From Nymphaea colorata (lineage: Eukaryota; Streptophyta; Magnoliopsida; Nymphaeales; Nymphaeaceae): a DNA stretch of 64,000 bases. The stretch spans positions 17,656,106-17,720,105 of the forward strand of contig NC_045141.1 of NCBI RefSeq assembly GCF_008831285.2, given 5' to 3'. Shown here piece by piece: positions 1 to 21,952 of the stretch. Both the position numbers and the translations under genes were made by a program. Each line of letters opens with the position of its first letter. The stretch's first letter is position 1. The notes below the pieces were generated by a model. The model did no database searches. It saw only the letters and a list, made by a program, of their open reading frames with translations, and had not been told where the DNA came from.

Positions 1-863
1 ACATATTATGAGCGGAAAATTACTAAAATGCTCTTGCTGACTAAATGGAATGCTCTTCTACTTCTACTACAAGAGCAAAAGTAGTATGGAGCAAAAATGT
101 CCATGAAAAATGTCCTTCAATTTATACCATGTTTTGGGTGTTATATGCATAACATGGAAATTATCGTCATTTTATGACACAATTGAAATTCCTAAGTCTT
201 TTATGGAGGTTACCTTGCATATTATGGAAATGAAATCCCTCCCTCCTTATTGACGTACAAGGACTTGCTATACTTCTTGTCACGCCCACCTTTACGGGTC
301 ATAACTTTCATTTTAGCTTCCTACTCTCTTGAAATTGATTGCCTACTTTATGACTTATACTTGAAACATATTTTCTTTCTTGCTTCTGCTCCTCCATGTG
401 TTACTCTTTTATATCTTTTGGTTCGTGTATTTATCCTTCAACCCATACCTTTATGTACTAACAATCGCGGATTGAACGGACGTTGCTTGTTATAGGATGA
501 AACGCCGTGACACCCAAATTGGCCTCAGATTTAAAAGTATTTTTGGTTTTAATTTCGCCTTATCAACGCACAACGTAAAATATTGGGCAACACTGATCCT
601 GTCTGGGGAATTAGTCACAAAAGCGTCTCTACAAGTGAAAAAATGATCCTTCATTAGAACGGAGGGAAGCTTCTCGCTCCTCCGAGGATGAGAAAGGAGA
701 AGGAGAAGACGACGACGGGCGAGAGGGAGTGAGAACTAGCATTTGAGAAACGAATGCGGAGGGGAGGGGGATTCCTTTCCTCGTAGGCGATCCATGAAGG
801 GGAGAGAGACGATGATGGCCGCCTTTTTTCCCCTCCGATCGTTCGCCACGCCCTAGTATATAG

Positions 864-1123
864 ATGCTAAGCTCTGCAATTTCAAGGGTCGATTTTTCCA
901 TGTTCTTCAAGTTCCTCGTCACTGCTCTCCTGGGCGCCGCGGCGCTCCGTCTCATCAGGGATACAGCCTCCAGGTACCTGACGGTCGGGAGATTGGGGGG
1001 ACACCGGAGACCGGGGGCCGCAGGAGGTCGGACGGGTCATGGCGGTGGCAATCAATGCGTCTGCTTCGTCTGCCACAGGCCGTCCACCAAGAAATGCTCG
1101 CGGTGCAAGGCTGTGCGCTACTG
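864..1123 (+). pseudogene. Exon 1 fragment of a UBP15/16-like ubiquitin protease (MYND zinc finger), left arm
   Basis: The frame from ATG 864 (or ATG 900) encodes a hydrophobic N-terminus (FFKFLVTALLGAAALRLI) followed by the first half of a MYND zinc finger, CFVCHRPSTKKCSRCKAVRY. The exon ends at 1123 in phase 2, before a gtatgg donor. The next base would complete the Cys of the family motif RYC. An N-terminal membrane segment followed by MYND is typical of plant UBP15/16/17 deubiquitinases, which remove ubiquitin from substrates. The second half of the finger and the Cys/His protease domain do not follow; instead intron-like DNA runs into the palindrome centre. The exon is open and could be transcribed, but it cannot make a deubiquitinase. 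An alternative is exon 1 of another MYND protein. Confidence 0.7.
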
Positions 1124-3995
1124 GTATGGGATGGAATTCCTACTTTCTCTTCATGCATTGGTCGTTTGCCTTTTTTTTCCCTTCGGTGTTCTTAATTCCT
1201 TATCGTTTTGTGTTGAGTACTTTTTTTTTTTTGGGGAATAGTTCTGCTAATTGGTCCTAGTATTGGACTGATAATTATCCGGTATTTCCTTGTCCCTGCT
1301 GAGGATTTGGTTGATTTGTTGGTACCATATTCCGAGGTCCTAATTACTTAAATAAACTCGATGAAGTGGCTGCCATTTGGTATTGTCCGGATTCCACATG
1401 GTTTGTTGGTTTTGGACTTGCGTGGTTGTTGGCAATATGATCATGCATCATTGTTGTGGTGATGTTCTTCAAACTTCAAAGGGAATACTCTCATGTTTCT
1501 TATTTTTCACGTAACCCATAGTTTTAGGTTGAGGCGAAGATTCTGTTAGGTGTTAATTCCTTTGTGGATTTGGAGGTTTATGTATGCCGTGCTATTTTGG
1601 CGCTCGAAATTGCTTTCTTGGGGTTCAAGTATAAGCCTGGTGTTATTGCCTCAAGATAATGACTGAAGTTTGATTTGTCTCCCAGTTTCATGTTGTTTAC
1701 TTCTTATGGTTATCTGGTTTCACAAATTTAAATCCATTCCAAAGAAAAATACAGACCTCATAAATTCATGAGCATCTTCCTGTTTCCCATATCCAAGATT
1801 TTCACCAATGTTAGGAATGGGAGAAAGGATATTGATTGGTGAAAAAGGGTTGATATATAATTATGGAAAAGCTGATGTTGTTTGTCTGGGAGTTATTGCA
1901 TGTCTTCTCATAAGCAGCATTCTTATTCACAACTAAGTTTAATAAATGGAGCCAGCATGATCCTGTAATTTCTCCTTTTCCCATTAATAAGAAGTTTTTT
2001 TTTTCCCATTGATTGGCAACTAAATCAATTTCTAGAAAGTTTAATAACTTTTTGTTCAAAACTCTCTCTCTTTTCCCCCACCTTGACTATGTACAGCCAG
2101 AAGAGTGGCATTTAGCTGAGTTCAAAACAGACTGATTAGTTCTTTGCTGAACAGGCCCTTTGTTGACTGACTTTCCTTCTCTCAGCATCCCCCCATCTCC
2201 TCCCATATCTGGTAGGCTGAATGCTTTTCTTTTTAAAATATCCCGAGGTTCTCAAGTGGGAAATTTATTTAACGTTCCTCTGTTTGGTGTCTCGTGAGGC
2301 CTAGGGTCCCTCACGGCCATCGAATCCAGAAAGAATGAAATCTTTTTCAACAATCCCCAGAGAAGGGAAAACAATTCCCAAAAATATTTATAGTCCCTCC
2401 GACTACTAATCCCTGGTTTTTGAATTCGCTTAACATGGATTTGAGGTATCCAATCTGAAGCTATCAAACATAGCTTCCATACCTTTATAAAGAAAAAGGC
2501 TGAGTTGGAAGGGTACTCATCGTGGAAAGTGTTAAACGAAGCATTCAGCCTTCTTTCTGGATTCAGATGGAAAAGATAGTTTAACACTTTCCACGATAAG
2601 TACCCTCCTAGCTCAGCCTTTTTCTTTATAAAGGTATGGAAGCTATGTTTGATAGCTTCAGATTGGATACTCAAATCTATGTTAAGCGAATTCAAGAACC
2701 AGGGATTAGTAGTCGGAGGGACCATAAATATTTTTGGGAATTGTTTTCCCTTCCCTCGGGATTGTTGAAAAAGATTTCCTTCTTTCTGGATTCGACGGCC
2801 ATGAGGGACCCTAGGCCTCACGATACACCAAACAGAGGAACGTTAAATAAATTTCCCACTTGAGAACCTCGGGATATTTTAAAAAGAAAAGCATTCAGCC
2901 TACCAGATATGGGAGGAGATGGGGGGATGCTGAGAGAAGGAAAGTCAGTCAACAAAGGGCCTGTTCAGCAAAGAAACTAATCAGTCTCTTTTGAACTCAG
3001 CTAAATGCCACTCTTCTGGCTGTACATAGTCAAGGTGGGGGAAAAGAGAGAGAGAGTTTTGAACAAAAAGTTATTAAACTTTCTAGACATTGATTTAGTT
3101 GTCAATCAATGGGGGAAAAAAAAAACTTCTTATTAATGGGAAAAGAAGAAATTACAGGATCATGCTGGCTCCATTTATTAAACTTAGTTGTGAATAAGAA
3201 TTCTGCTTATGGGAAGACATGCAATAACTCCCAGACAAACAACATCAGCTTTTCCATAATTATATATTAACTCTTTTTCACCAATCAATATCCTTTCTTG
3301 CATTCCTAACATTGGTGGAAATCTTGGATATGGGAAACAGGAAGATGCTCATGAATTTATGAGGTCTGTATTTTTCTTTGGAATGGATTTAAATTTGTGA
3401 AACATAACCATAAGAAGTAAACAGCATGAAAACTGGGAGACAAATCAAACTTCTTTCATAACTTGAGGCAATAACACCAGGCTTATACTTGAACCCCAAA
3501 AAAGCAATTTCCAGCGCCAAAATAGCAAGGCATACATAAACCTCCAAATCAACAAAGGAACTAACACCTAACAGAATCTTCGCCTCAACCTAAAACTATG
3601 GGTTACCTGAAAAATAAGAAACATGAGAGTCCTTTTGAAGTTTGAAGAACATCACCACAACAATGATGCATGATCATATTGCCAACAACCACTCAAGTCC
3701 AAAACCAACAAGCTATGTGGAATCCGGACAATACCAAATCGCAGCCACTTCATTGAGTTTATTTAAGTAATTAGGACCTCGGAATATGGTACCAACAAAT
3801 CAACCAAATCCTCAGCAGGGACAAGCGGATAATAACGAAACCACGAATACGATCAGTCCAATACCAGGACCAATTAGCAGAACTAATCCCCCAAAAAAAG
3901 TACTCAACACAAAACCATAAGGAACTAAGAACAACGAAGGCGAAAAAAGGCAAACGACGAATGCATGAAGAGAAAGTAGGAATTCCATCCCATAC

Positions 3996-4247
3996 CAGTA
4001 GTGCACAGCCTTGCACCGCTAGCATTTTTTGGTGGACGGCCTGCGGTAGACGAAGCAGACGCCATTGATTACCACTGCATGCGTCCAACCCCCGCTGTCC
4101 TGCGTCGTCCCCCAATCTCCCGACCGTCAGGTACCTCGAGGCTGTATCCCTGACGAGACGGACCGCCGCGGCGCCCACCAGGAGAGCAGTGACGAGGAAC
4201 TTGAAGAACGTGGAAAAATCGACCCTTGAGATTGCAGAGTTTAGCAT
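3996..4247 (-). pseudogene. Broken mirror copy of the MYND exon 1, right arm
   Basis: This is the reverse-complement copy of the exon at 864-1123, reading toward the palindrome centre from ATG 4247. It shares the same N-terminus (DFSTFFKFLVTALL) but is damaged. An extra base just before the zinc finger (tggc for tgc near 4065) shifts the frame. In the ancestral frame the second Cys of the first CxxC is now Tyr, the Ser of KKCSRC is a TAG stop, and Arg of AVRY is His. The gtatgg donor is kept at 3995-3994. These lesions fall only in this arm, so it has drifted as non-coding DNA since the duplication. Confidence 0.75.
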
Positions 4248-5079
4248 CTATATACTAGGGTGTGGCGAGCGAACGGAAGGGAGAGAAGGCGGCCGTCGTC
4301 GTCTCTCTCCCCTTCATGGATCGCCTACAAGGAAAGGAATCCCCCTCCCCTCCGCGTTCGTTTCCCAAATGCTAGTTCTCACTCCCTCTCGCCCTTCGTC
4401 GTCTTCTCCGTCTCCTTTCTCATCCTCGGAGGAGCGAGAAGCTTCCCTCCCTTCTAATGAAGGATCATTTTTCACTTGTGGAAGACGCTTTTCTGACTAA
4501 TTCCCCGGACAGGATCAGTGTTGCCCAATATTTTACGTTGTGCGGTGATAAGGCGAAATTAAAACCAAAAATACTTTTAAATCTGAGGCCAATTTGGGTG
4601 TCACGGCGTTTCATCCTGTAACAAGCAACCTCCGTTCAATCCGCCATTGTTAGTAAATAAAAGGTATGGGTTGAAGGATAAATACACGAACCAAAAGATA
4701 TAAAAGAGTGACACATGGAGGAGCAGAAGTAAGAAAGAAAATATTTTTCAAGTATAAGGCAATCAATTTCAAGAGAGTAGGAAGCTAAAATGAGAGTTAT
4801 GGCCCGTAAAGGTGGGCGTGGCAAGTAGTATAGCAAGCATCAATAAGGAGGGATGGATTTCATTTCCATAATATGCAAGGTAACCCCCAAAAAGACTTAG
4901 GAATTTCAATTGTGTCATAAAGTGACGATAATTTTCACGTTATGCCTATAACTTCCAAAACATGGTATAAATTGAGGGACATTTTTCATGGACATTTTTG
5001 CTCCATACTACTTTTGCTCTTGTAGTAGAAGAGCATTCCTCAGCAGGAGCATTTTAGTAATTTTCAGCTCATAATAAGT

Positions 5080-5775
5080 AATAACATTTAAAATTGTAAA
5101 AGCATGCAGGTTTTTGAAAATCCTACAAAGAAGGTGGGTGTTTCTAGAATCTTGCGCCATACGTATATTTGGTCCTCGACTTCCTCCACTTTCTGTGTTT
5201 TGAGGACATTCAAGTTTTCATTTTTTTTTTCCCTTTTGTGTCTTGCAACCGCTTTCTTCCTCGAGAATGAAAGTTATTAAAAGGTTGGTAGGTGGCATTC
5301 CTGTATATGTGCCTAACAAAACTCATTGAGAATAGTATATTGCATCACATAAGCGACTGGCCTGGCTGTATACCAAGGGAGGCAACTTGGTCGTATTTCT
5401 ATTAAGAAACTTTCAGTAACTGACATAATAAAGAAGAACTTTCAAAATGAAAAAAAAAATCCTGTTTCCTTTTCATGGTGTAAATATTATATAAGCTTGT
5501 TTTTTTTTGGGTGTTCTGTAATGTCCATAAGCAACTCCCCACTTTGGAGTGACCTCCTCCTTTGATCCTTGATTACAAGTAGAACCTCCAAACCAGATGG
5601 ATTCATAATTTATGATTATCATATCAAATCCAACCTAAACTAAGTTAATATATTTATGTTCCGCGGAAAGTGAACTGTTTTCTTCCATTTTTTGGGGATA
5701 CGTAAGTTTGGGTTATGCATTGTAGATGCTTTGACAGTAGGCCCGTCAGGGAGCTTGTCCTTGGTTATGCAGACT

Positions 5776-5816
<41 letters not shown>

Positions 5817-6345
5817 CTTTCAAGAAGAGGTGTTCCCTTAATTATTTTGTTGGTAATCTTTATTACAAACCAGAGAAAATTTTCTCATTGTTTTGAACAA
5901 ATCCAGTCAAGTTAAACCATAATTGTGCCACCAACTAAAGTGACCCAATTTATTTCGGACAAAAATATTAGGTCGCCTCCCACCTTTTAGGGGGTTGGAC
6001 TTAAGACATTCAACTTGAAAGAGGCCAAGAGTTTAATACTCAACCATGATTCATAGCTGCCCCAACTTGCAAGAAAGAACAAATAAAACAAACACAAAAA
6101 GAAAGATAAAAGAAGTTGTCAATACCACGGTTACCACCTAGTTTTCCTCCCCTTTATGATTAATCTTAGGAACAATAACAAAAAAGTGACTCTCTCTCCC
6201 TCTCATATCTGTTCTTGGTTTGTCCAACTTAACTTGGTTGAATGACATCCGATTGTTACTTTGTTTTGCTATTGGATGCTATGATTTCGACCTTTTAACT
6301 GCACCTTCACTTCTTTGCCTCGACTACTAAGCGGTTCAGAACATA
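5080..6345. other. Intergenic DNA with a TA microsatellite
   Basis: No gene is recognisable here. There is a TA microsatellite at about 5778-5813, followed directly by the dispersed repeat at 5818-5953. The rest is AT-rich single-copy-looking sequence with only short chance open frames. Confidence 0.6.
5818..5953. repeat. Dispersed direct repeat, copy 1
   Basis: About 135 bp starting ttcaagaag and ending gacccaattta recurs almost unchanged at 20829-20964 in the same orientation. Both copies are preceded by AT-rich DNA with TA runs, and the flanking sequences then diverge. No coding content or terminal repeats were seen. It may be a fragment of a transposon LTR or of a short non-autonomous element. 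Confidence 0.8.
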
Positions 6346-6615
6346 ATGTCATGTCATGCCTTAAGACAGATATACAGACAACAACTGCTGAAACCAATGG
6401 ATGATGAACAGGTCTGTTTAATGATGCAAGAAGTGGACAAGAAGGGTGCTCTTCGCCCTGACATGTTTACTGGTCGGTTCTACAAGCAGTACTTTTGGGG
6501 AGGAATGGGGGACGATGGCTGCCAACCTCTAGAAAGTGATCTCAACAACAGGTGCATCCTTCACAGAATAAACAGGAACAAGTGTTATTATGATGCCAAG
6601 GAAAGAAAACTTTGA
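6346..6615 (+). CDS. Unrecognised open frame, possible exon
   Basis: This 89-codon frame has balanced composition with charged and aromatic residues, unlike the AT-rich chance frames around it (for example LLKPMDDEQVCLMMQEVD and FYKQYFWGGMGDDG). An ag dinucleotide at 6338-6339 could be a splice acceptor just upstream. I do not recognise the family. A second protein-like frame lies 1.7 kb downstream on the same strand (8282-8665), so the two may be exons or decayed pieces of one gene. It could also be chance or a transposon fragment. Confidence 0.3.
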   Translation: MSCHALRQIYRQQLLKPMDDEQVCLMMQEVDKKGALRPDMFTGRFYKQYFWGGMGDDGCQPLESDLNNRCILHRINRNKCYYDAKERKL

Positions 6616-7112
6616 GCCATCCACACTTATGACCCATTAATTTATGTGACTTTCTCTACAAATTTATTGTCTGTTGAGAATCGCAATGCATAAGCTTGTA
6701 ATTATTTGCCAAAAAGCCTTTTTCTAGAAAGGTTGAGGCAGTGTCATCCTGTTTCTCCTTTCTTGTTTCTCTTTGCCATAGAACTGCTTTATCTGGTGTT
6801 GGATGAGTAAGAAAGTGAGTACTGGTGAAATTGGGGACGCCTGAGTTGAACCATGGATATGAAAATTAATTTCCTGCGAGTGGAGATCTAAGGATGTTCA
6901 TATCACTCACGAAGTTGCAACTAATGTCTCCCCAAATAAACGATCTGCCAAACAGCAGGATTCTATTAGTAGACGATGGGCTCTGTTAGAAGAGAGGATT
7001 CCTCTTTTTAAATTGATTTGGCGAAATGAAAAGTAGATGCCAACGTCTACTTGTAAGTTTGATATCAAGGGTATCAACTGAACAAAGTTTGCCAAACCCC
7101 GGTTCATGTGGG

Positions 7113-7232
7113 AGCATTTGGTAACAGGAACACTATTCTTTAGGAGGTCTGTTTCATTAACCTATCCCAATCTTTGGGACATATTTATAAAACATTATGT
7201 TTCATAAGTGTTCCTGTTATAAAACAGCTTCT
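7113..7232. mobile_element. Small foldback/MITE-like element
   Basis: The left end tttggtaacaggaacact and the right end, read in reverse complement (tgttttataacaggaacact), form terminal inverted repeats of about 18 bp around a 120-bp body. Related ends occur near 46367-46582 and within 41150-41960. No clear target duplication was seen. Confidence 0.5.
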
Positions 7233-7619
7233 AACAGGGACATTGTGTGAGTGTCACACAAATGTGTGGGAATCCACCCCAAGAGCATATTTATGGAACA
7301 TCCATAAAGTGTTTTTGCTGAAAAATGATCCATGATATATTACTTGTACAACTTGAATCATGGTCTGGTAGGAGTCTGCCTTGTTACCGCAGCTTATTAT
7401 CTCATAGAAAAGAGTATTGAAGCAGCCATTTGAGGGGTGTCAACAGATGCTACTCGCATCAGACCCAGGTGCACTCGACCTGGTCCGAGTATCAAGTACC
7501 GCTGATCTAGATAAGAGTTAGCGACAACTATGCTTGGTCATGCAAGTTCTGCACATGTCAATCTTGGTTCCCATCTAATAAAATATTACACCTTTATGTT
7601 TTCAACGGAAATTCTGATG

Positions 7620-8060
7620 GGTTTTTAGTAAAGATGTCAACACGTCGGATTTAAATCAAATGTACCCTTAACCATATCTGTTTTTAGGATGTTCACACAT
7701 TTGCATTCAGATTCAAATACAAACAAAGAAAAGTCATATTCGAATATGAAAACCGATTTCACAAATTTGAATCTAATCCAAATCTGATCTTTACATTCAT
7801 ATCCGCATCCGAATTTGAATTTTGAACTGATTTAGCCGATTTTCAAAATGTACGAGCTTTAGATATGGGATATCTGTTTAAAAATAAATATGATATGAAT
7901 CCATATCCGAATCTGATTGAATATTTAAGTATATCTGAATCTGAACAGATGTCATTTTTTAAGTCTGTGATTTCTTAATCAGATATCAAATTTATTTTCA
8001 TATCAGATTTTTTTGAAATGATTCGGTTAGATACGTTATCTAAATCCGATATATTGGCTT
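7620..8060. repeat. Degenerate 'aatccgaa' repeat, copy 1
   Basis: A run of diverged short motifs (ccgaatctgaat, atccgaatttg and similar) forms a block that aligns as a whole with 43315-43575, with a weaker relative at 63780-64000. Shared internal landmarks such as aagaaaagtcatat and gaattttgaac show these are copies of one element, not just simple repeats. Confidence 0.65.
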
Positions 8061-8281
8061 CCCAAGTTTTTAGTCTATCCTGAAGTAGAATGTGAGTCAT
8101 GTACAGACTTTTGTCCCACAGATATCAAACCTATGGTGTGCTCCAAACAGTAATTGGAGGAGATTTTTCTCTCATAAAAAAAACCCAGATCCGTCCTCTT
8201 AGATTTTGTACAGGCAGGTTGCCAGTTCAACCCAACCATTGGTAAGTACTCGGCTCCGATGCCGAGATTCTTTCACAATTC

Positions 8282-8665
8282 ATGAACAAGGAATATGAAA
8301 TCATCTCGGCTGATATGTACAAGGGCAATGTAACTTTTAATTCACCTGAAAAATACAGAATGAAGATGGTGGGCCTTTCTCAAATTCAGAAACGGAATGC
8401 ACCTGATCTTCTCACAGGGCTGATGGCCTGCTTCCCAACCTTTAAAGATCGGACAGGAGCTGTGGCAGACCCCATTATCATGGAATTCCCCATGGTTGAC
8501 GATAAGCGGAGAACAAATTTGATGGGGTTAGCAGACATGTTTCTAAGCAGAAAAATAAATCGTTTACTCTGTTGGCTGGTGCATGCAATGCAGTTAGTTG
8601 TGTACTTCCTGATTAAGCCGCGAAAAAGAAAAATTAAACATGTGGAGAGTTTTCAAGTTGTATGA
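8282..8665 (+). CDS. Unrecognised open frame, possible exon
   Basis: This 127-codon frame has a protein-like core (TFNSPEKYRMKMVGLSQIQ, LLTGLMACFPTFKDRTGAV, IIMEFPMVDDKRRTNLMGLA) and a less convincing tail after about residue 95. I do not recognise the family. Its composition differs from the surrounding AT-rich DNA. It sits on the same strand as the frame at 6346-6615 and may be another exon of the same unknown or decayed gene. No start-site context supports the first ATG. Confidence 0.35.
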   Translation: MNKEYEIISADMYKGNVTFNSPEKYRMKMVGLSQIQKRNAPDLLTGLMACFPTFKDRTGAVADPIIMEFPMVDDKRRTNLMGLADMFLSRKINRLLCWLVHAMQLVVYFLIKPRKRKIKHVESFQVV

Positions 8666-9024
8666 CTACTAATTGTCATCTGAATTAGAAAGAAAAGGTA
8701 GTACAAGGTGTGGAGCCACATGGGGACTGGGGCATAACCGCAGAAATACAAAATTACATAAATGTCTTTACAAAAAAAAAAAATCATCTATTAAGTATAG
8801 ATCAAGCTCCACACTCGGACATTTGATCCTGGAATGTGAAATTAAACTTGTGTTATATGTGAACCAGACATTTTTAGCTTTTTCGCAACATCAAACCATT
8901 TGCACAAACGAAACTTGAGTCATGCAAATTATGTGTAAAAAAGCAATTCATTTATATGTGCCCATCCTTCATAAAAGTGAGATAAAGCAGAAACAAAGGT
9001 TGACTTAGATATAAACCGTTGAGA
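8666..9024. other. Gene-free gap
   Basis: I see no gene here. It probably includes the 3' end of the minus-strand transporter gene that stops at 9025. Confidence 0.5.
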
Positions 9025-12000
9025 TCAAGTGAAGCTCTTCACGATCTGAGACAGAGAAGAGTACGTGCCAAGAGCTGCACAGACTGTGCCTGTTCCGATT
9101 ATTGTGATACAAAGGACGATCTGATAGCAGACAAGGAAAAAATGCAGGAAAAGATGTAATAGATAGCCGAATGGGAGAACCCAAATCTTTTAAAAAGATT
9201 GTTTCATATGTGCGTGCATGTGTAAAATATTGCTTGGCGTACTGAAGTACCTCAAATGTTGCCGTCTTCTTTATCTTCAAGAAACAGAGAGGAGGAAAGA
9301 CGACAGCCTATGATGAGCATAGCAGCAGTCAGCAGACGACATGCGCTCATCAAAAATCAAGAAAAAATGTTCTCCTATAAGTTCATCTAAATTATAAAAT
9401 GCGCATTTATGATTCACGGTTATTACAGTAAGCGAGCAGAGCAGAGAGCCAAACAATGCCATGAATAGACCTGGAACCATAGCACAGTGGGAAGGAAGGA
9501 TCATTAGAAGAAGCAGCCAGAATAGTTTAAGTTGGATAGACATGTAAAGCATATACATCAATAGATGGATCATTCGAAATATAAAGAAGAATTGGATTGC
9601 TTTCACATGCCAATGAATGTTTTTAACTAACAGTTGAATTATAAGATGCAGAGATTAGTTAATTTTTCCCTAAGTTAAAGTCTAGTGCCCCATGAAAAAA
9701 CCAATCCTTGAGAGACATTGGATTGCCTAGTTTTAATAGAACAAGTTACTGTTATAAACTTCATTGCAAGGTGGGTATCGCTTGACCTATTAGCAGAAAT
9801 TTTCTAAACGAGTTTGAGGGAAATTGAGTAAGTCTCTAAATCCTCATGGAAGCAACGTCTATTGGGTGTCTTGTGGAGCTGGGCTATCTCCAGTTATTTG
9901 CCAGTATTAGGTGATTCCCAAATCATTAAGAAGTGCCGGATTGCTCCTTCAGCTTTCATGAAGTTCATTCAGTCTCAACACTTTAAATTTTCTATGTCAA
10001 ACAGACTGTGATTCCTTTGCACTATACCCTAGACTTCATTCACATGTTTAGAACTTGTGTTGTGCAAACCATCTGTTTTTTGTGCTATTAAGCTTTCTTT
10101 TGCTTCCGTTTAAAGTAATACTACCATAGTCATGAGTTGGCATACCGAAAAAAGGTAAAAGTAATGCAATAGAGACTGTTGAAATAACTAGTCCTGTCCT
10201 TATCAGCATGCAAACGAGCAACCCATTTTGTCTCCCTACTGGAAGCAACTTCTCAAAGCCCCTCGCCAAGGGATTAAGAAGTAAGGCATATCTATTCTGC
10301 TGTCAAGGTAAAAAATTCTGAAATTAATCAAACTATTGCGCAAGAAAAGCATGTAATCTATACATTTACGAGAAGTGAAAGGATACTTAGTGAGGGGATT
10401 GATCACCTAGGAAGAAAAAGAATAAAAGAACAGAGATTAGTACGGGCTACATAATATCGTTAGCATGAATTATTAATTTGTAACTCTCTATCAACAAGGC
10501 TTGATATAAAACATGGATAGACATATCAATGATGTACTCACTGTCGTCCAGATTGCAACTTTTGAAGCAGAAAAATGTGTTGGCAAGTTCAAGGTTATTT
10601 GGGATCTAGTTTTCTGACCAAACATTAGATATCCCATCGCTCCAACAAGACCATATATTGCAGTGCACAGAAAGAAGCTGCGGTAACAGATAAACAATTT
10701 CGAGAACATATTATATTGAGACACTAGTCCATAGAAAAAAAAAATACCTACCAAATAAGTAGCGCCATGTTGAATTTTGTTTTCTGTGCCATTGATTGAT
10801 ATATATTAGGAAATACTGTGTGTCCAGCGTAGCAAAACCCATACACCCCGATTGCAAACGGAAGACCATTCCAATTAATAAAGGAGCCAGTTTGGTGAAA
10901 TCCTATACCACCAGTTGTACCCACAACAAACACTGAAAGGGATATTAAAATTGTTGCAAGAACACCACCAGCTGCATTCCACATTTGGAAAGACCCGGTA
11001 AATAGTCAATTAAAAAAATATGAGTCCACACTTTCGAAACTTTGTTCACAAGCATAAAAGATAAGAAAATGAAGTTGCACAATACCTGAAAGGTAAGACA
11101 AGACTTGGAGATCTTTTAACCAAACTGTGGGAATGACGACTAGGCCAGTTAAGATTCCAAAAAGGTGCGCAGAGCCGACATGAATCCCCGCCAAATCAAT
11201 TGAAGATCCCGGAAATAACTTTCTTAGGTTATCAGCTTCCAAGATGATAATTTCCACGCAGATGCACTGTATTATGGGGTGCAGAGAGAGAGAGAGAGAG
11301 AGAGAGTATGGTCCATGGTGTTAATTGTTATCATGAAGGACAATGGTCAACTAGAATCATCGTCATCCATAACCAGAAATGCCAAAATGTGATTGTTCAG
11401 TAATTAGAAACTGTTCAGCTACTGTTGCATTTTCAGTGCATACTGTTGCATTTTCAGTGCATGTTCCCATTTGTCGGTGTGTGCAGGGGCTGAAACAGGA
11501 TTTTTTTTAGGGGCACACCAAAATCTCTGCAAAAAAAAAAAAAACCTGCTCTCACCCGGGCCATGGCCCAGGTGGCCCCCCTCTCTCCGCCCCTGGGTGT
11601 GTGTGTATATATATATAAACAAAATAAAAGAGGAGTGATGCTCATTTCTTTCTGGAGAAAAAGGAAAAGAACCATTGGGTTGGTGGAGAAATCAGGAGCA
11701 ATTCAAGTTACTTACAAGTACCAAGAAGCGCCCATATTTTCCATAGGCAGCTTCGCCTATATCTGGATAGCTGATAATGCCTCCTCTGTTTCGCATACAA
11801 CGTCCCATGAGGATGCCTGTGTAGCAACACATGGCTGCAAAGCACGTTAAGACCAGCAAGCTTGCCCATCCAGCTTCTTTTATGGTGAAAGGTGTGGTCA
11901 GAATTCCAACTCCCAGCATCACGTTAACACCTGTTACCAAAACCTTAGAATTCAGTTAGTCCAGAAGAAAAAGAGAATACGAAAAAGATTCAAAGTGCGT

Positions 12001-12264
12001 GCGAATCTAGCTTTTCTGGCAAAGTCTGACTCCCCTTTTCTTTTAACTTGTAATGTGAACCAGAAGCACTATATGATCTGGAAAACAATATGACAGTAGT
12101 TTCAGAGTGTTGGTAAGACTATGATACCATTGAAGATGGTCTGGGTCATGCTACATCCTTGAGCATCTTGCCCTTCTCGAGAGGACTGCAAGTTTTGGTC
12201 TTCTGCCACAGTGTCTTGATGGGTAGTGGGGGAAGCAGTGATTTCATATGCATCGACCGACTCC
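9025..12264 (-). CDS. AVT1-type vacuolar amino-acid transporter (5' end not found)
   Basis: Exons in transcript order: 12264-12128, 11930-11716, 11266-11086, 10971-10752, 10677-10542, 10406-10387 (a 20-nt microexon), 10291-10146, 9470-9427, 9307-9251 and 9120-9025. All introns are GT-AG and the frame is continuous to TGA at 9027-9025, giving about 417 codons. Family landmarks are [78 protein letters not shown] and [18 protein letters not shown]. These mark an AAAP/AVT1 proton-coupled amino-acid carrier of the tonoplast with about 10-11 membrane segments. The first listed exon starts mid-frame, so at least one upstream exon is missing. About nine residues usual in TM3 (before CVE) are absent between exons 2 and 3, and a MITE lies in that intron. 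The gene may be damaged or misspliced. Confidence 0.85.
11484..11595. mobile_element. MITE with CAGGGGC...GCCCCTG ends and an 8-bp target duplication
   Basis: A 112-bp element starts caggggctgaa and ends ctctccgcccctg, so its ends are inverted repeats. It is flanked on both sides by ggtgtgtg (11476-11483 and 11596-11603), an 8-bp target duplication typical of hAT-like or Mutator-size elements, although the site is GT-rich. It lies in an intron of the AVT1-like gene. Relatives occur at 43840, 45210 and 57807, and as an end fragment at 20707. Confidence 0.7.
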
Positions 12265-13268: not shown

Positions 13269-13273
13269 AAGTC

Positions 13274-13824
13274 TGAAGAAAATAGAGGCGATATCAGTAA
13301 GGAAACTCTTGATCAAGAAAGAAAGGAGGAAAACAGAGGAAGTCAGCGTTACAATGCCAAAGAGGAAAACAGAGGAGTGAATGAAGAAACTCCAGCCAGC
13401 CGTGACAATGAAAACAGTAACGGCTGTAATCACTATAATGCCAACAAGGAAACACCAGCCCATCATGACGCTGGAGACAGTAACGATTATAATCGTTACC
13501 ATGGAAAGAAGGAAACATTGTCATCTGGCCAACCGTGTGAAGAAAGAAATACAAAGACAATGGCTGGCCAGGCAGCTCTCAAACAGAGAGACACAACTCA
13601 ACAAAGAAATAACGACTGTAAATCAGATACAGTTTCCTTCTGTAAAGATTGATATAGATCTTGTAATTCAGGAAATAATGATGCTTGTAATTATATTATA
13701 AATAGAAGAAAGAACCAGACATATCGTCACCAAGAACGATAGCTGCCCTTGTGGATGTAGGTGTGATTTTACACCGAACCACGTTATATCAGGCGTTAGT
13801 CCCTTAAATCTCTGTTTTTCTTTA
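13274..13824 (+). repeat. 5' LTR of the copia element
   Basis: 551 bp, from TGAAGAAAATAG to TTTTTCTTTA. U3 carries three copies of a gaggaaaacagagg-like motif (near 13276, 13326 and 13361). It also has two diverged tandem units of exactly 63 bp (13386-13448 and 13449-13511), with the start of a third at 13512. The same frame that closes the polyprotein is open here to 13652, ahead of the TATA box at 13697. Confidence 0.95.
13697..13704 (+). promoter_or_regulatory. Likely TATA box of the copia LTR promoter
   Basis: TATAAATA lies in the second half of the LTR, after the U3 repeats and about 120 bp before the LTR end. That would put the RNA start near 13730. The same box is at 18482-18489 in the 3' LTR, where it could drive transcription into flanking DNA toward 19 kb. 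Confidence 0.6.
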
Positions 13825-16800
13825 TGGTATCAGAGCAGGACAACCCTATGGCGCAGAACAATTCTTCCTCAAGCATGGCGTCAGCTCCAAGCAAATACCC
13901 TTACCCATACAATCTGAACGTTGCCAACTTTGTGTCGATCAAGCTCAATCAAGGAAATTTTCTGCTTTGGCAAACACAGATGATGGGGCTCATCGAGAGC
14001 CAAGATATGACTGGTTTCCTAGACGGAGAATACCAGCCGCCCGCACAGTTCCTCACTGCCTCTACTGAAAATACAGTCACAGGACTGAATCCCGACTATC
14101 TTGCTTGGCGAAAGTCGGATCGTCTTCTTAAAGGATGGATCACTGGGACTCTTGCAGAGGAAATCCTAGGCATTATCATCGGACAACAAACTGCCATGGA
14201 GGTATGGACTACTCTAACTCAGCATTTCGCTAATAAATCTAAGGAGCGAGAAATGTTTCTTATGCAAAAACTTCAAATGCATAAGAAAGGGAACTCGTCC
14301 ATTGATGAATATGTTCGCAGCTTCAAGAAAATTTCCGATGAGCTCGCTGCTATTGGAAAGCCTATTACAGACGAAACTAAAGTCTTTTGGCTCCTCACTG
14401 GCCTCGGAAAAGATTATGAATCTTTTCGAACAACCTTATTGACAACCATGCTGAAACCACCAGCACCCTCATATCTTGAGGTAGTTGCTCTTCTTCAAAA
14501 TCATGAAACTATGAGGACGTTAGAAGAAGATTCTTCTAGCACCCACGTTACTTTTTTCAGCCACCGTCAACCTAATCAAAGGTACAAGGGAAGCAAAAAT
14601 CAAACCTTCAATTCTAAAGGACGTGGGTTTGTGCAAGCTAGCCAAAGTGGTTCATGGAACTCAGCCGACAAAAACAAAGATGGCAATATGAACCGATCAG
14701 CTCCAGAAAAAGGCATAATATGCCAAATATGCAGCAAAAGAAATCACACCGCTCTCAACTGCTGGCATAGGTTCAATCAAGTGTTTCAGTCACAGAAGGC
14801 CCCACAAGCTTTAACCATCACGAAAGCATCTGAAAATCAAGATCAACAATGGTTTCCTGACACCGGTGCATCGGCTCATGTGACGTCTAACGCAGGTATA
14901 CTCAGTTCTCTATCTAAATATTATGGGACAGATAAAATTATGGTTGGAAATGGAGAAAAATTGGATATTACTCATATAGGGCAGGCTACTATAGCTAATG
15001 GGCAACAAAAACTGGTTCTTGATAATGTTTTAGTCGTCCCCAAGATCAAGAAAAACCTTATCTCTGTCAGTCAGTTAACGTCCGATCTTCCTTATGTTTT
15101 TGAATTTTCAACTAATGAATTTGCTGTGAAGGAAAAGATGACCAACAAAGTGATAATTACGGGGAAGAGGCATGAAGATCTTTATGCGGTTGAAAATAAG
15201 AGAGAAGGCAGCGACCGGATCCATGAAGTTCATTTCTCTACAAGATTTCAAGCAGCAACTAAAGAAGTTTGGCACCAACGTCTAGGTCACATTCATCGTG
15301 AGGTAGTAAATTTTCTTGCAAATAAAAAGGCCATTCGTGTGACAGGCCATAGTTCTTTAAACAGCATATGTTCTAGTTGTCAAATGGCAAAAATGTGTCG
15401 TCTTCCTTTCTTACCAGTGGATGAGCATTGTGAAAAATTTCTTGATAAAGTTCATTGTGATTTATGGGGACCAGCCCCTGTTATTTCAGTTGCTAAATTT
15501 CGATTCTATGCTGTTTTCATTGATGAAGCCACCCGGTTCACTTGGTTCTATCCCTTGCGTTACAAATCTGAGTTATACCAAGTGTTTACGATTTTCCATA
15601 AATATGTTGAAAATCAGTTTGATACAAAAATTAAGATATTTCAAAGTGATGAAGGAGGTGAATTCAATAGTCTCAAACTTGCAGCGTATTTACAAGAACA
15701 TGGTATACATCATCACAAAGCTTGTCCTAAAACGCCACCCCAAAATGGAATGGCAGAACGGCGTCACAGGACCATTGTCGAACTCGGTTTGGCAATGAAG
15801 TTCAATGCTAATATACCAGCTCGATATTGGGTTGAAACATTTTCCACTGCAGTTTGGCTTATTAATAGACTACCCACTCCTACATTGAAGATGAAATCTC
15901 CTTTTGAATTGGTTTTTGGAAAAAGTCCGTCTTACTCTTGCTTGCGGACATTTGGGACTAGATGTTTTCCATATCTCAGAGATTACGCTCTCAACAAACT
16001 TGAACCAAGATCCTTACCTTGTGTATTTTTGGGTTATAGTAATACACATAAGGGATACAAGTGCTTATATCCACCTACAGGGAAAATATATATTTCCCGA
16101 CATGTTGTCTTTGATGAAAGTATCTTCCCTTATAAACAGCCTGGAGCACTCTTTTCTTCTACATCAACCAGCAACAGTGGGGTGACTTACAGTGATTGGA
16201 TTGCATTAGATCAATGTTCAGATGGTAACAATGATAATTCATATCAAGTGGTTGATCATCATCTCTTGCATGATGGTTCATCAGACACTGCTTTTGTCCA
16301 AGAGCCGCCTAGCAGACACGACAATGTTTCAGCACAAGAGACACATGATATAGGTGCAAATGATCTACTCTCACCAAACAATGAGGCTGGAAGTCAACCA
16401 CCTACAGAACAACGGCCGTTCCAAGGAACCTCCAATATTCATTCAATGGTAACTCGGGCTAAGGTTGGTACCTTAAAACCAAACCCTAAGTATTTTTTGG
16501 CCTTAACGGTACCACTTGAACCCAAAACTGTTAAGCAGGCCTTTAAAGATCCAGGTTGGGTTGCTGCTATGAAAGAAGAGTTACGTGCCTTGGAACAATG
16601 CCACACTTGGACGTTGGTACCTCGCCAATCAGGTATGAACGTTGTTTCAACCCGATGGGTCTTTAAAACCAAACTCAAAAGTGATGGAACGGTTGAGCGA
16701 CTCAAAGCTAGACTGGTTGCGCGCGGGTTCAACCAAGTGCCTGGCATTGACTTTCTAGAAACCTTCTCTCCTGTTATAAAGCCAGCAACTATTAGAATTG

Positions 16801-18437
16801 TGCTTACTATAGCTCTTTCTCACAACTGGGATATTCGACAAATGGATGTCAAAAATGCCTTCTTGCATGGTGATTTGGATCAAACTGTATTTATTGAACA
16901 ACCACCAGGATTTCTTGATGATCAAAAACCAAATTATGTGTGCCAGTTACACAAAGCTCTCTATGGTTTACGTCAAGCTCCAAGAGCATGGTACGATCGG
17001 TTTGGAACTTATCTTCTCTCAAAAGGTTTCTTCTCCAGCATCTCTGATTCCTCGCTATTTATCTATAAAGAAGGTCGTGGTGTCATACTTTTATTATTGT
17101 ACGTCGACGATATCATATTAACTGGCAGCAACCCTATGCTACTTGAAGACTTCATTCGAGATATTAGCAAGGAGTTTTCTATGAAGGATCTTGGTTATCT
17201 TCATCACTTTCTTGGCATAGAAGTGATCAAATTTTCTGGAGGGCTCTTCCTCAATCAAAAGCGATATGCCTATAGCCTGCTGGAAAGAGCAAATATGACA
17301 TCGTGCAAACCGGCCGTCACTCCCTTGGTTCAAAATTACAAAAATCTGGTTGATGACATACCTTTTTCCGATCCGACACTCTTTCGAAGCTTGGTGGGAG
17401 GCCTCCAATACCTCACGTTCACGCGGCCTGACATCTCCTTCGCTGTGAACTTTATCAGCCAATACATGCAATCACCCATGGTCAGTCACTTTCAACTACT
17501 TAAAAGACTCATTCGATATGTTAGTGGTTCCATTGATATCGGATGTCATATACATTCGCAAGCGCAACTCCAACTTCATGCCTTTTCTGACTCTGACTGG
17601 GCGGGATGCCAGGCAACACGTCGCTCAACTACTGGTTTTGTTACGTTTATTGGCACTAATCCTATTTCATGGACAGCAAAGAAGCAACCTACAGTGGCCA
17701 GATCTACCACCGAGGCTGAGTACCGATCAATGGCATCTGCTGCTGCCGAATTAACCTGGATTACATATATCCTCAAAGACATCGGACTCTATCTCCCAGA
17801 ACCACCGGTCCTCTACTGTGACAACATGTCTGCACTTCAAGTCTCTATCAAACCGGTTTTTCACTCTCGCATGAAGCATGTCGAATTAGATTATCATTTT
17901 CTAAGGGAAAAGGTTGCACTTGGTCTTCTTACGACTCAATTTGTTCCAACGACCCAACAGGTGGCTGACATTTTCACCAAGGCTCTCTCTCGAACCACTT
18001 TTGAATTTTTAAGAGGCAAACTAGCGCTTTCCATACTGCCGCCTAGTTTGAGGGAGGCTGAAGAAAATAGAGGCGATATCAGTAAGGAAACTCTTGATCA
18101 AGAAAGAAAGGAGGAAAACAGAGGAAGTCAGCGTTACAATGCCAAAGAGGAAAACAGAGGAGTGAATGAAGAAACTCCAGCCAGCCGTGACAATGAAAAC
18201 AGTAACGGCTGTAATCACTATAATGCCAACAAGGAAACACCAGCCCATCATGACGCTGGAGACAGTAACGATTATAATCGTTACCATGGAAAGAAGGAAA
18301 CATTGTCATCTGGCCAACCGTGTGAAGAAAGAAATACAAAGACAATGGCTGGCCAGGCAGCTCTCAAACAGAGAGACACAACTCAACAAAGAAATAACGA
18401 CTGTAAATCAGATACAGTTTCCTTCTGTAAAGATTGA
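13824..18437 (+). CDS. Copia gag-pol polyprotein, 1537 aa, with an LTR-encoded tail
   Basis: Reverse-transcribing polyprotein made in the cytoplasm and self-cleaved in virus-like particles. In order: UBN2-like gag; zinc knuckle CQICSKRNHTALNC (300-313); aspartic protease DTGAS (346-350); GAG-pre-integrase with H484, H489, C516 and C519; integrase triad D546, D609 and E645 (D609 and E645 are 35 residues apart); reverse transcriptase with YVDD at 1093-1096; and RNase H from FSDSDWAG (about 1253) to near 1400. There is no stop or frameshift, and all catalytic residues are seen. The ATG at 13824 spans the LTR/primer-site junction; ATG 13848 (MAQNNSSSS) is a conservative alternative. Residues 1413-1537 are encoded by U3 of the 3' LTR: a hydrophilic tail with EENRG repeats and two 21-residue repeats (1450-1470 and 1471-1491) ending at a stop inside the LTR. 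Confidence 0.95.
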   Translation: MVSEQDNPMAQNNSSSSMASAPSKYPYPYNLNVANFVSIKLNQGNFLLWQTQMMGLIESQDMTGFLDGEYQPPAQFLTASTENTVTGLNPDYLAWRKSDRLLKGWITGTLAEEILGIIIGQQTAMEVWTTLTQHFANKSKEREMFLMQKLQMHKKGNSSIDEYVRSFKKISDELAAIGKPITDETKVFWLLTGLGKDYESFRTTLLTTMLKPPAPSYLEVVALLQNHETMRTLEEDSSSTHVTFFSHRQPNQRYKGSKNQTFNSKGRGFVQASQSGSWNSADKNKDGNMNRSAPEKGIICQICSKRNHTALNCWHRFNQVFQSQKAPQALTITKASENQDQQWFPDTGASAHVTSNAGILSSLSKYYGTDKIMVGNGEKLDITHIGQATIANGQQKLVLDNVLVVPKIKKNLISVSQLTSDLPYVFEFSTNEFAVKEKMTNKVIITGKRHEDLYAVENKREGSDRIHEVHFSTRFQAATKEVWHQRLGHIHREVVNFLANKKAIRVTGHSSLNSICSSCQMAKMCRLPFLPVDEHCEKFLDKVHCDLWGPAPVISVAKFRFYAVFIDEATRFTWFYPLRYKSELYQVFTIFHKYVENQFDTKIKIFQSDEGGEFNSLKLAAYLQEHGIHHHKACPKTPPQNGMAERRHRTIVELGLAMKFNANIPARYWVETFSTAVWLINRLPTPTLKMKSPFELVFGKSPSYSCLRTFGTRCFPYLRDYALNKLEPRSLPCVFLGYSNTHKGYKCLYPPTGKIYISRHVVFDESIFPYKQPGALFSSTSTSNSGVTYSDWIALDQCSDGNNDNSYQVVDHHLLHDGSSDTAFVQEPPSRHDNVSAQETHDIGANDLLSPNNEAGSQPPTEQRPFQGTSNIHSMVTRAKVGTLKPNPKYFLALTVPLEPKTVKQAFKDPGWVAAMKEELRALEQCHTWTLVPRQSGMNVVSTRWVFKTKLKSDGTVERLKARLVARGFNQVPGIDFLETFSPVIKPATIRIVLTIALSHNWDIRQMDVKNAFLHGDLDQTVFIEQPPGFLDDQKPNYVCQLHKALYGLRQAPRAWYDRFGTYLLSKGFFSSISDSSLFIYKEGRGVILLLLYVDDIILTGSNPMLLEDFIRDISKEFSMKDLGYLHHFLGIEVIKFSGGLFLNQKRYAYSLLERANMTSCKPAVTPLVQNYKNLVDDIPFSDPTLFRSLVGGLQYLTFTRPDISFAVNFISQYMQSPMVSHFQLLKRLIRYVSGSIDIGCHIHSQAQLQLHAFSDSDWAGCQATRRSTTGFVTFIGTNPISWTAKKQPTVARSTTEAEYRSMASAAAELTWITYILKDIGLYLPEPPVLYCDNMSALQVSIKPVFHSRMKHVELDYHFLREKVALGLLTTQFVPTTQQVADIFTKALSRTTFEFLRGKLALSILPPSLREAEENRGDISKETLDQERKEENRGSQRYNAKEENRGVNEETPASRDNENSNGCNHYNANKETPAHHDAGDSNDYNRYHGKKETLSSGQPCEERNTKTMAGQAALKQRDTTQQRNNDCKSDTVSFCKD
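13825..13836 (+). other. Primer-binding site (initiator tRNA-Met)
   Basis: TGGTATCAGAGC directly abuts the 5' LTR and matches the 3' end of plant initiator tRNA-Met, the usual copia primer. The last LTR base plus the first two site bases spell ATG, the first start codon of the gag-pol frame. Confidence 0.9.
18047..18058 (+). other. Polypurine tract of the copia element
   Basis: TTTGAGGGAGGC immediately precedes the TG of the 3' LTR, where the plus-strand primer is expected. It is also translated, as SLREA, within the polyprotein frame. Confidence 0.8.
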
Positions 18438-18609
18438 TATAGATCTTGTAATTCAGGAAATAATGATGCTTGTAATTATATTATAAATAGAAGAAAGAAC
18501 CAGACATATCGTCACCAAGAACGATAGCTGCCCTTGTGGATGTAGGTGTGATTTTACACCGAACCACGTTATATCAGGCGTTAGTCCCTTAAATCTCTGT
18601 TTTTCTTTA
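18059..18609 (+). repeat. 3' LTR of the copia element
   Basis: 551 bp, with no difference from the 5' LTR found on reading. It contains the last 125 codons and the stop (18435-18437) of gag-pol, the 63-bp repeats at 18171-18233 and 18234-18296, and a TATA box at 18482-18489. Confidence 0.95.
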
Positions 18610-19190: not shown

Positions 19191-20706
19191 ATTAATTCTA
19201 TGCTCCCATGTGCACGATGCTTCGTGATTGTTAAAAATTAAAAATTTGCCGTTAAAATGCTACCACCACATGAGAATTAGCAACGGTTTATGAAGCAACA
19301 ACACTTGGTTAGTTCTTAACAATGATTTATGATGTATTTAGCAATAGTTTTTAATTTTTAACCATCCAAATGTTATATATATATATATATATGATACAAC
19401 TTTTAGCCCTGCCCTGCCTTGCATACAGAGAGTGATATATAAATATCCCTTGAATTATCTTCATGAAAATCATCCAGGCAGAAAGGTATATATCACGAAC
19501 GTAGAAAGTTAGCGGTGTCTTGACTTCACAGAAAAACACAGCATGTTCGCAGACGGTTCTGATTCAAAAAGTAGTCATTGCAGCTAAAATAATATTTACA
19601 GATCAAAATGAGAAAAAGAAGAACAAGAATAAGAGCTGAGAGATTGCACCGGTAGCTCTGACTGCCGTGTTTATCAACGTCCTCCACCTCCTTTTCTCCC
19701 CCGCCCCCCACCAGTGCCTTCAAATCGTTCGCCTTCTCCATTCTTTGCCAGCAGCACCATAGAATGCCGGCTGTTATAGTTGCATCCTTGTAGGCAGTAG
19801 TTACACGCATTTGTTTGGTGATCATTTCGTTATAACCTCTTCCCTTGCCCAATGCGTTTCTATCCGGTATCCGGTTTCTATGCTAGAGTGTTACGACGAA
19901 AAGACCTATTGAAGAAAATTTTTTGAGAAGATAAAAATGAAAATAAAAAAGTAAAAAAACTGTAAATAAAAATACCTTTTTAATAAATTACAAATTTTTT
20001 TTAAAGTTTAAGAGTCATAAAAATACAAAATATAAAAATTGTCTTACATATATATATATATATATATAATCCTCGATATTTATTTTGTGGGGACATTTCG
20101 AAAATATTGCAATATCTTGCCAATGTGATCAGCTATCACCAAAACGCCAACAATATCAAAATATTTTAACAGATATCGGTGAAATTTGGAATCGATGCAA
20201 TGCAGAACCCCAGTATAATAAGCCTGGCCCGAGACTGCTAAGAAAGGCAGATCCAGGGTTAGCTTGTATAACAGAAAGCTGATCTTAGGCCCCTTGATCC
20301 CTTGTTTGAGAAATTACCTGAATTTTAATAAATATCATTGTGCCTCGTGCATGAAGTTTGTGAAACATAACGCCATGTTCCTACTAAAAAAACTGGTTTT
20401 TCTGAGTTAGTTTTGACAAAGGCAAGCAAACTGCAAGGAAGAAAAACAAAGTTTTCTTCCCTTTTATCAAAAAATTTCTCCTAGAATTTTTCCTAGCTTG
20501 ATTTGATGCTACACTAAATATGCTCTCCATCTTCCTTGTTACATATAAACTCCTCCTTGTTTATGCGCAGAACCATAAATTTTTCATGAAGAAGACAAAA
20601 TTAAAGTTTCTAAATTTTATCTAAGGCTGAAATATCATTTTTCTAAATTTTTATATAAAACAAGTAAACTTTTCTAAAATTTACATGTATTTTTTTTTTT
20701 AAAATT

Positions 20707-20755
20707 GAGGTGGAGCCGGAGCCCATGCAGGGTCCCTACCTTGGCTCCACCCCTG
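20707..20755. mobile_element. End fragment of a CAGGGG-type MITE
   Basis: The stretch ending cttggctccacccctg matches the right end of the element at 57807-57966. The left part is too diverged to delimit. Confidence 0.45.
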
Positions 20756-20828
20756 CTCCTATGCACAATCAAACTTATTAAAAATTATATAATTAGATAT
20801 GGACACATACATGCATATATATGTATGT

Positions 20829-20964
20829 TTTCAAGAAGACGGTGTTCCCTTAATTATTTGTTGGTAATCTTTATTACAAACCAGCGAAATTTTTTCTCAT
20901 TGTTTTGAACAAATCCAGTCAAGTTAAACCATAATTGTGCCACCAACTAAAGTGACCCAATTTA
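20829..20964. repeat. Dispersed direct repeat, copy 2
   Basis: Nearly identical to 5818-5953 in the same orientation (ttcaagaag to gacccaattta), differing by a few substitutions and single-base indels. Copy 2 is preceded by atgcatatatatgtatg. Confidence 0.8.
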
Positions 20965-21952
20965 AATCTGATCTGAGGTCATACAAACGGTCTTATTAAT
21001 TCAATAACATTCTAAAATGTGCCTGAATTGATTTATCTGGAATACGGTCAGCTCCGCTTGTTCAGAAATAAACTTTTATATTTATTACTAACAAACAAAA
21101 ACCTATGCAAAAAATTATCTAAAAGACGTAACATATAGAAAAAGACACTTAGGATATCCAATCGAATCAACAAAATGTGTAACTGGTACATAAAAGAATA
21201 TGATGGATTTGAACTTGATCAATTGATTGACTTTCAGAAGGATTCAAACAATCTTTTGACGGTATATTGGTTTGGGTTCAAAGGAACCATAATCTTAAAA
21301 GAAAGGCCGCTTGTAGACGTGACCACGTGAATTGAACTCAAAAGAATTGTGAACGTCGAACTGGTCGTATCCCTTGCAAAGTTGATAGTTTCGGATCACA
21401 TTCCACCAACTGCAATTGCTTCTATCGAGCGCACAAGAATTAAAATTAGCTTCACACTTGCGGTGTCGAGTGTGACGTGATAAATTAACTCTGAGAAGAA
21501 CTTGTGACGCGCACCCCGCTTCATTAATCATTATCAATCAAATGCAATCAAGTTCATGAACCGTAACGCAATTGAGTCACATATATAGAAGGAACTAATC
21601 AATAAGGTGTGCCACCGTCTGTCTATGCAGGTCTCAAACATTTTCTCGCTTGGAATAACAAGATTCATAATCACACAATTCAGAAGAAATTCAAAAAATT
21701 TCAGGGACAACAAATACAAGGAATAAGAAAAGTATGGTAGCAAAATATTGGTTAGAATTGTCCACTCTTGTTCCTAACAGCCAAAAGCTAATGGTAACGC
21801 AAAAAATGTGGCCAGATATTCAGAAATCCTTCCCAAGAGAATCACAGCAACACCAACCTTTTCACCCCAAAGCACCTATACAATAGGTCAGCTCCATACA
21901 TACCCTACCGTAATGCTCAGTTTCCTTTTCACAGCCTTGCAAGCAATGTTTC

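Follow-up and report, generated by a model that had tools for sequence, protein, structure and literature searches.

The left end of a 64,000-nucleotide stretch of the Nymphaea colorata genome (RefSeq assembly GCF_008831285.2, contig NC_045141.1; C4:17656106-17720105, hereafter the window) is occupied by a long palindrome, in which two inverted arms with copies of the first exon of a UBP deubiquitinase gene face each other across a 41-bp loop. Positions are given in window coordinates (W; W1 = C4:17656106), negative values lying to the left of the window. The right arm is called B, the left arm C, and a third, likely parental copy A; C3 denotes another contig. Genome searches were carried out in the 407.8-Mb, 783-contig assembly.

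Between the arms, 19 inverted-repeat blocks (30-306 bp long, 91-99% complementary) were identified, which together account for most of 1-2537 against 2579-5079. Alignment of W-700..2537 with the opposite arm gave an identity of 94.88% over 3105 aligned sites, with 159 substitutions (91 transitions, 68 transversions) and 28 gap runs. The central part (2140-2975) folded as RNA with -725.4 kcal/mol, compared with a mean of -223.1 kcal/mol (sd 7.1) for 20 dinucleotide shuffles, which excludes a chance origin of the pairing. A long, near-perfect inverted repeat with a short loop (94.9% identity, 41 bp), as is expected of a hairpin-RNA (hpRNA) locus, is thus present. The preliminary description had placed the palindrome at 1..5079 with arms of 2.5 kb. 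Pairing was confirmed there; the end points have to be moved outwards, as the left boundary, sought in the neighbouring DNA, was found at W-763 and the right arm reaches ~5760, each arm meeting an (AT)n tract (on the right at ~5779). The existence of the palindrome is confirmed, at a greater length than first described. All but one of the bases in the surrounding 200 kb were read, and no N was found among them.

A parental gene had been expected elsewhere in the genome, and a likely parent was found close by. Copy A has the same orientation as the right arm and is situated to the left, 14-16 kb from the first base of the window, with the gene start on the minus strand; its exon 1 (W-15246..-15511) is ~18 kb from the palindrome loop. 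Within W-30000..-10000, two 21-mer blocks were common to the arms and A after low-complexity words had been dropped. The two halves of a MYND finger were matched by exon 1 (profile positions 1-22, 17.3 bits) and exon 2 (positions 20-39, 17.4 bits) of A, each half alone scoring below the Pfam cut-off of 22.7 bits; the splice signals are placed such that TG meets C and a Cys codon is re-formed. Further exons of A carry a Cys-box (split over two exons, as read by eye), the motif QEDAHEFM and the His-box FGHYICY. In a Pfam scan of four USP exon frames, UCH was matched by three, the His-box frame above the cut-off (51.2 bits) and the other two below it; the KCNKIS frame gave no UCH match. MYND together with USP is described as the signature of the UBP15-19 group (PMC11236618), and both parts, the latter with its Cys and His boxes, are found in A from exon-wise matches. 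A, the likely parent, is a MYND-USP deubiquitinase gene of the UBP15-19 type, an assignment made at group level only; the earlier designation UBP15/16-like holds in this wider sense, and the matches do not carry it to a particular member.

With the exon 1 protein as query, the genome search returned A, the left arm, the right arm as two separate pieces, and a single paralog of 56% identity (C3:22208200-22208475), which has no 19-mer in common with the arms. The His-box exon returned A and two paralogs (61% and 49%), the former with two stops in the matched frame.

The arms are mosaics (Table 1). From the outside to the loop, the left arm opens with sequence of A (W-763..1721) that comprises the 5' flank, the first exon and some of the first intron; there follow a piece of a second exon of A (the QEDAHEFM exon), two segments, X and Y, which match C3, and a micro-inversion. 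The preliminary description had reported exon 1 with upstream DNA and intron in both arms; this content was found, and it is incomplete, since a second gene piece in the opposite orientation and C3-matching sequence are also present. Besides the arms, C3 was the only match of X and Y among the best candidates scored. In the C3 locus (C3:11283343-11284441) X and Y stand in opposite relative orientation, ~430 bp apart; no clear gene was seen there among 10 open reading frames (ORFs) of >=75 aa, judged without a domain scan. A mitochondrial origin of X and Y, suspected from their appearance, was set aside, rather than excluded, once the one other match found proved to be on the large C3 contig.

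Overlaps at the joins of the mosaic were read by eye. The first shows a microhomology of 4 bp (TTTC, 1718-1721), the join of the second-exon piece to X an overlap of ~1 bp at 1848, and the X/Y join a microhomology of 5 bp (TCAGC); the last join of the arm carries a short filler. For 1,000,000 random joins within the region, overlaps of >=4 bp and >=5 bp were obtained in 2.0% and 0.65%, respectively. Two parts of the loop are identical to the right arm, 2539-2551 (13 bp) to 2889-2901 and 2549-2564 (16 bp) to 2778-2793, and look templated. Beyond the palindrome, the right arm remains collinear with the A locus for ~3.1 kb.

Table 1. Features of the palindrome and its right flank (W coordinates; negative values lie left of the window).
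Feature	Position	Strand	Remarks
Left arm (C)	W-763..2537 (window part 1..2537)	+	inverted-repeat blocks, arm alignment
UBP exon 1 copy, left	864..1123	+	ATG at 864, donor TG/GTATGG; open, partly out of frame
QEDAHEFM-exon piece, left	1718..1848	-	corresponds to A W-18806..-18676 (131 bp); opposite orientation to exon 1 of the same arm
X, left	1842..2186	+	matches C3:11283343-11283698, 90% identical
Y, left	2194..2504	-	matches C3:11284130-11284441 in reverse, 93%
Micro-inversion, 24 bp	2514..2537	+	inverted relative to its C3 neighbour Y
Loop, 41 bp	2538..2578	.	lies between the arms
Right arm (B)	2579..~5760	-	pairing goes on to AT tract at ~5779
Y, right	2608..2921	+	same segment as 2194..2504
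X, right	2929..3278	-	same segment as 1842..2186
QEDAHEFM-exon piece, right	3273..3404	+	same piece as 1718..1848
UBP exon 1 copy, right	3996..4247	-	ATG at 4247; frameshift and in-frame TAG stop
Directly duplicated parental locus, continued past the palindrome	5816..8978	+	corresponds to A W-13592..-10453; 88-98% identical per <=500-bp block

Microhomology and templated-looking filler, the marks of a template-switch/fold-back rearrangement, are both present at the junctions. The anatomy is plainly seen, and we consider it quite probable that replication template switching with a fold-back was the mechanism. At least 2.5 kb of the neighbouring MYND-USP gene (from the promoter side through exon 1 into intron 1) would have been copied beside that gene by a strand which switched template repeatedly, on two or more occasions at short homologies, and thereby gained the inverted second-exon piece and the two pieces that match the unrelated C3 locus. 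The strand would then have folded back, leaving the mosaic as two inverted arms around the 41-bp loop; the arms would have drifted apart afterwards, and there are signs that they were homogenised in patches. Human fold-back inverted duplications are comparable in that inverted copies surround a spacer, and 13 of 21 sequenced junctions are reported to show 2-8 bp of microhomology and five to carry insertions (PMC3907307). Their spacers consist of 766-70,466 bp of normal-copy sequence, in contrast to the templated-looking 41-bp loop and kilobase arms of the present palindrome.

The history of the copies was examined by counting sites at which A alone differs against those at which B or C alone differs. 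In four blocks of W-100..1721 the ratios were 27:19, 17:32, 7:38 and 17:16 (chi-square across the blocks, p=1.4e-4; W-700..-130 and sites at which all three copies differ were excluded), and in W-700..-130 the ratio was 1:17. The arms form a group in certain blocks but not in the rest, which we read as patchy gene conversion between copies; constraint on the A exon may add to the 7:38 block. X has 20 changes on the C3 branch against 4+3 on the arms, and Y 15 against 3+8. The second-exon piece is star-like, with 1 change on A and 1+2 on the arms. Over W-700..-130, together with ~5200-5760, the three copies are 96.7-98.4% identical, above most other parts of the arms, as would follow from recent gene conversion or from constraint. 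A two-step origin is a possible alternative.

As a potential, the idea of a hairpin RNA is sound. The claim that a transcript across the loop could form a very long double strand was borne out by the predicted fold of 866-4246, in which 1600 arm-to-arm pairs were counted over a half-arm of 1672 nt (minimum free energy -2864.4 kcal/mol, compared with -862.9 kcal/mol for one mononucleotide shuffle). From 3281 left-arm windows, 1091 distinct 21-mers were perfect in both arms. The exon 1 coding sequence (CDS) of A yields 246 21-mers; 120 of them recur in an arm, and 16 fall where the stem is perfectly paired; the corresponding figures were 70 and 49 of 111 for the second piece, and 1045 and 361 of 2519 for the block of flank, exon 1 and intron. 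Shared 21-mers span 217 of the 266 bp of the exon 1 CDS and 130 of the 131 bp of the second piece, so that the match to the parental exons has the length expected of an hpRNA locus and its target.

DNA-level genome searches with 1-2400 and 1700-2600 matched nothing but the two arms, copy A and the locus on C3 among the candidates scored. No 19-mers were shared between the arms and the three paralogous exon-match loci (low-complexity words dropped), a control that is fair only for the 56% exon 1 paralog, as the other two loci are His-box regions absent from the arms. From these searches, any small interfering RNAs (siRNAs) that might be made should match the neighbouring gene best.

The upstream region of A, a putative promoter that is held by each arm, points to the loop. 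Since the arms carry this inward-pointing region, read-through from either side would yield a near-complete hairpin RNA. Dicer-like enzymes could cut it into 21-24-nt siRNAs against exon 1, the 5' flank and the second exon of the nearby gene, and these might lower the parental mRNA or methylate its start. Such a route to silencing of the parent is put forward tentatively, as a possibility rather than an expectation. It is unlikely, though conceivable, that the accident went as far as to build an RNA interference gene against its own neighbour, in which a hairpin with two pieces of the target mRNA, driven by inward copies of the target promoter region on both sides, would follow the expression of the target and exert proportional negative feedback on a growth-regulating deubiquitinase of the UBP15 group.

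Taken as a whole, an origin by template switching and fold-back combined with possible hairpin action is, on balance, the explanation that we favour. Several observations weigh against it. The microhomology is uneven, one join having an overlap of ~1 bp and another a short filler, and the order of events is not fixed, as W-700..-130, 900-1290 and the second-exon piece are star-like and other blocks pair the arms. The stem is interrupted (arms ~5% different, with the gap runs given above), and just the 16 of 246 exon 1 windows are both identical to the parent and perfectly paired. As a trace of past methylation, CpG decay is weak: the CpG observed/expected ratio is 0.75-0.76 on the arms and 0.80 in A, and the excess of CpG loss on the arms (p=0.032 overall) is gone without the coding exon (p=0.25). 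CpG loss was defined in two slightly different ways, by which A has 2 and 3 sites of this type, respectively.

With respect to activity, there is a rather good chance that the palindrome is a neutral scar of segmental duplication, without promoter activity, whose arms diverge and are sometimes converted while the parent is unaffected. The right exon 1 copy is broken by its frameshift and TAG, the left copy has no stop yet is out of frame over part of its length, a methylation-decay signature is not clear, and the surroundings form a rearranged tandem cluster, all as expected of a silent relic. Against this reading stands the parental 5' flank kept by both arms, with the high identity of W-700..-130, which gene conversion would also explain. 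A nascent microRNA gene (MIRNA) that already gives one or a few dominant small RNAs is very improbable. miR163 is reportedly an example of MIRNA birth by inverted duplication. Adjacent inverted segments of a target gene, as found here, are the starting point of the published model (PMC3237417), but the present stem, kilobases long and nearly perfect, is far longer than a MIRNA foldback and more like that of an hpRNA. In an Rfam scan of 1-6000, the best scores at the loop (mir-642, 45.1 bits, gathering threshold 90; MIR2118, 39.1 bits, gathering threshold 85) were far under the thresholds; membership in a curated MIRNA family was accordingly rejected.

Two further explanations concern the origin. 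The preliminary description spoke of a captured exon, and a mosaic of fragments from several loci does recall elements with captured genes, such as Pack-type elements, foldback elements or Helitrons. Capture by a transposon is nevertheless very improbable, for the right arm passes into the ~3.1 kb collinear with the parent locus, so that an element would have no end on that side; X and Y matched only the two arms and C3 among the best candidates scored; and the ends of the arms lie at an AT tract, where no terminal repeats were noticed, target-site duplications and Helitron ends not having been searched for. Template switching with fold-back fits the anatomy better.

An artefact would mean a palindromic long read with a missed adapter or a misplaced haplotig. 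The short loop and the near-symmetric arms would suit it, and we judge it highly improbable. Raw-read error consists mostly of indels, unlike the divergence of the arms, where the 159 substitutions far outnumber the gap runs. The grouping of the copies varies from block to block, X, Y and the exon piece link the arms to other loci, and the stretch is free of N as stated above. An adapter core sequence had no match in the window at <=3 mismatches, which counts against a missed adapter. The published assembly was built from PacBio RSII reads, which would also suit an artefact, and its description includes chimaera filtering and polishing (PMC7015852). Divergence of the substitution type, the gap-free stretch and the negative adapter search all speak against an error of assembly.

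The kind of locus is already known; what sets this one apart is that its construction as a mosaic can be read and that the likely parent adjoins it. Mu killer and inverted CHS duplications are known silencers, and the present inverted duplication would, judging by its sequence, be able in principle to silence a homologous gene in trans as they do. The VIM4-VIM2 inverted repeat of Arabidopsis Cvi-0, for which small RNAs, chimeric transcripts and down-regulation of the target are described, is likewise a natural plant palindrome of gene copies and belongs to a kind that yields hairpin transcripts, with siRNAs directed at family members in cis and in trans (PMC13213937); its arms are two genes, whereas those described here are mosaic fragments with C3-matching filler. 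The Tpd1 hairpin of teosinte pollen drive, from which Dcl2-dependent 22-nt siRNAs against Tdr1 are reported (PMC11390486), shares with the present, predicted hairpin the long hairpin RNA and a gene as possible target. Tpd1 is also tied to pollen drive; the present locus differs from both of these systems in being known from sequence alone.

Inverted duplications of gene fragments are proposed to give rise to young hpRNA and MIRNA loci. In this case the likely parent adjoins, a second matching locus lies on another contig, and the junctions are readable base by base. Should small RNAs map to the palindrome, the locus would be self-targeting, with a history of construction that can still be followed; if none map, it would show plainly that anatomy of this sort makes no silencer by itself.

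The surrounding DNA contains further repeats. A cluster of related sequences lies by the UBP locus (~8500-12200, W-11 to -6 kb and W-95 to -62 kb; ~73-94% identical), with one block inverted between copies. Of seven window ORFs scanned, two, both at 10748-11955, matched Aa_trans (amino acid transporter). An inverted pair (19374-20991 and W-2420..-798, 93.8% identical) continues the outer flank of the left arm, which suggests a fourth partial copy; a dispersed ~190-bp repeat with many genomic matches lies inside it. At 13270-18609 a long terminal repeat (LTR) retrotransposon was found, Copia-like by eye (no domain search was made), with one open frame of 1545 aa. Its LTRs (13270-13824 and 18055-18609, 555 bp each) are 99.82% identical, and from this sequence comparison it is a young insertion.

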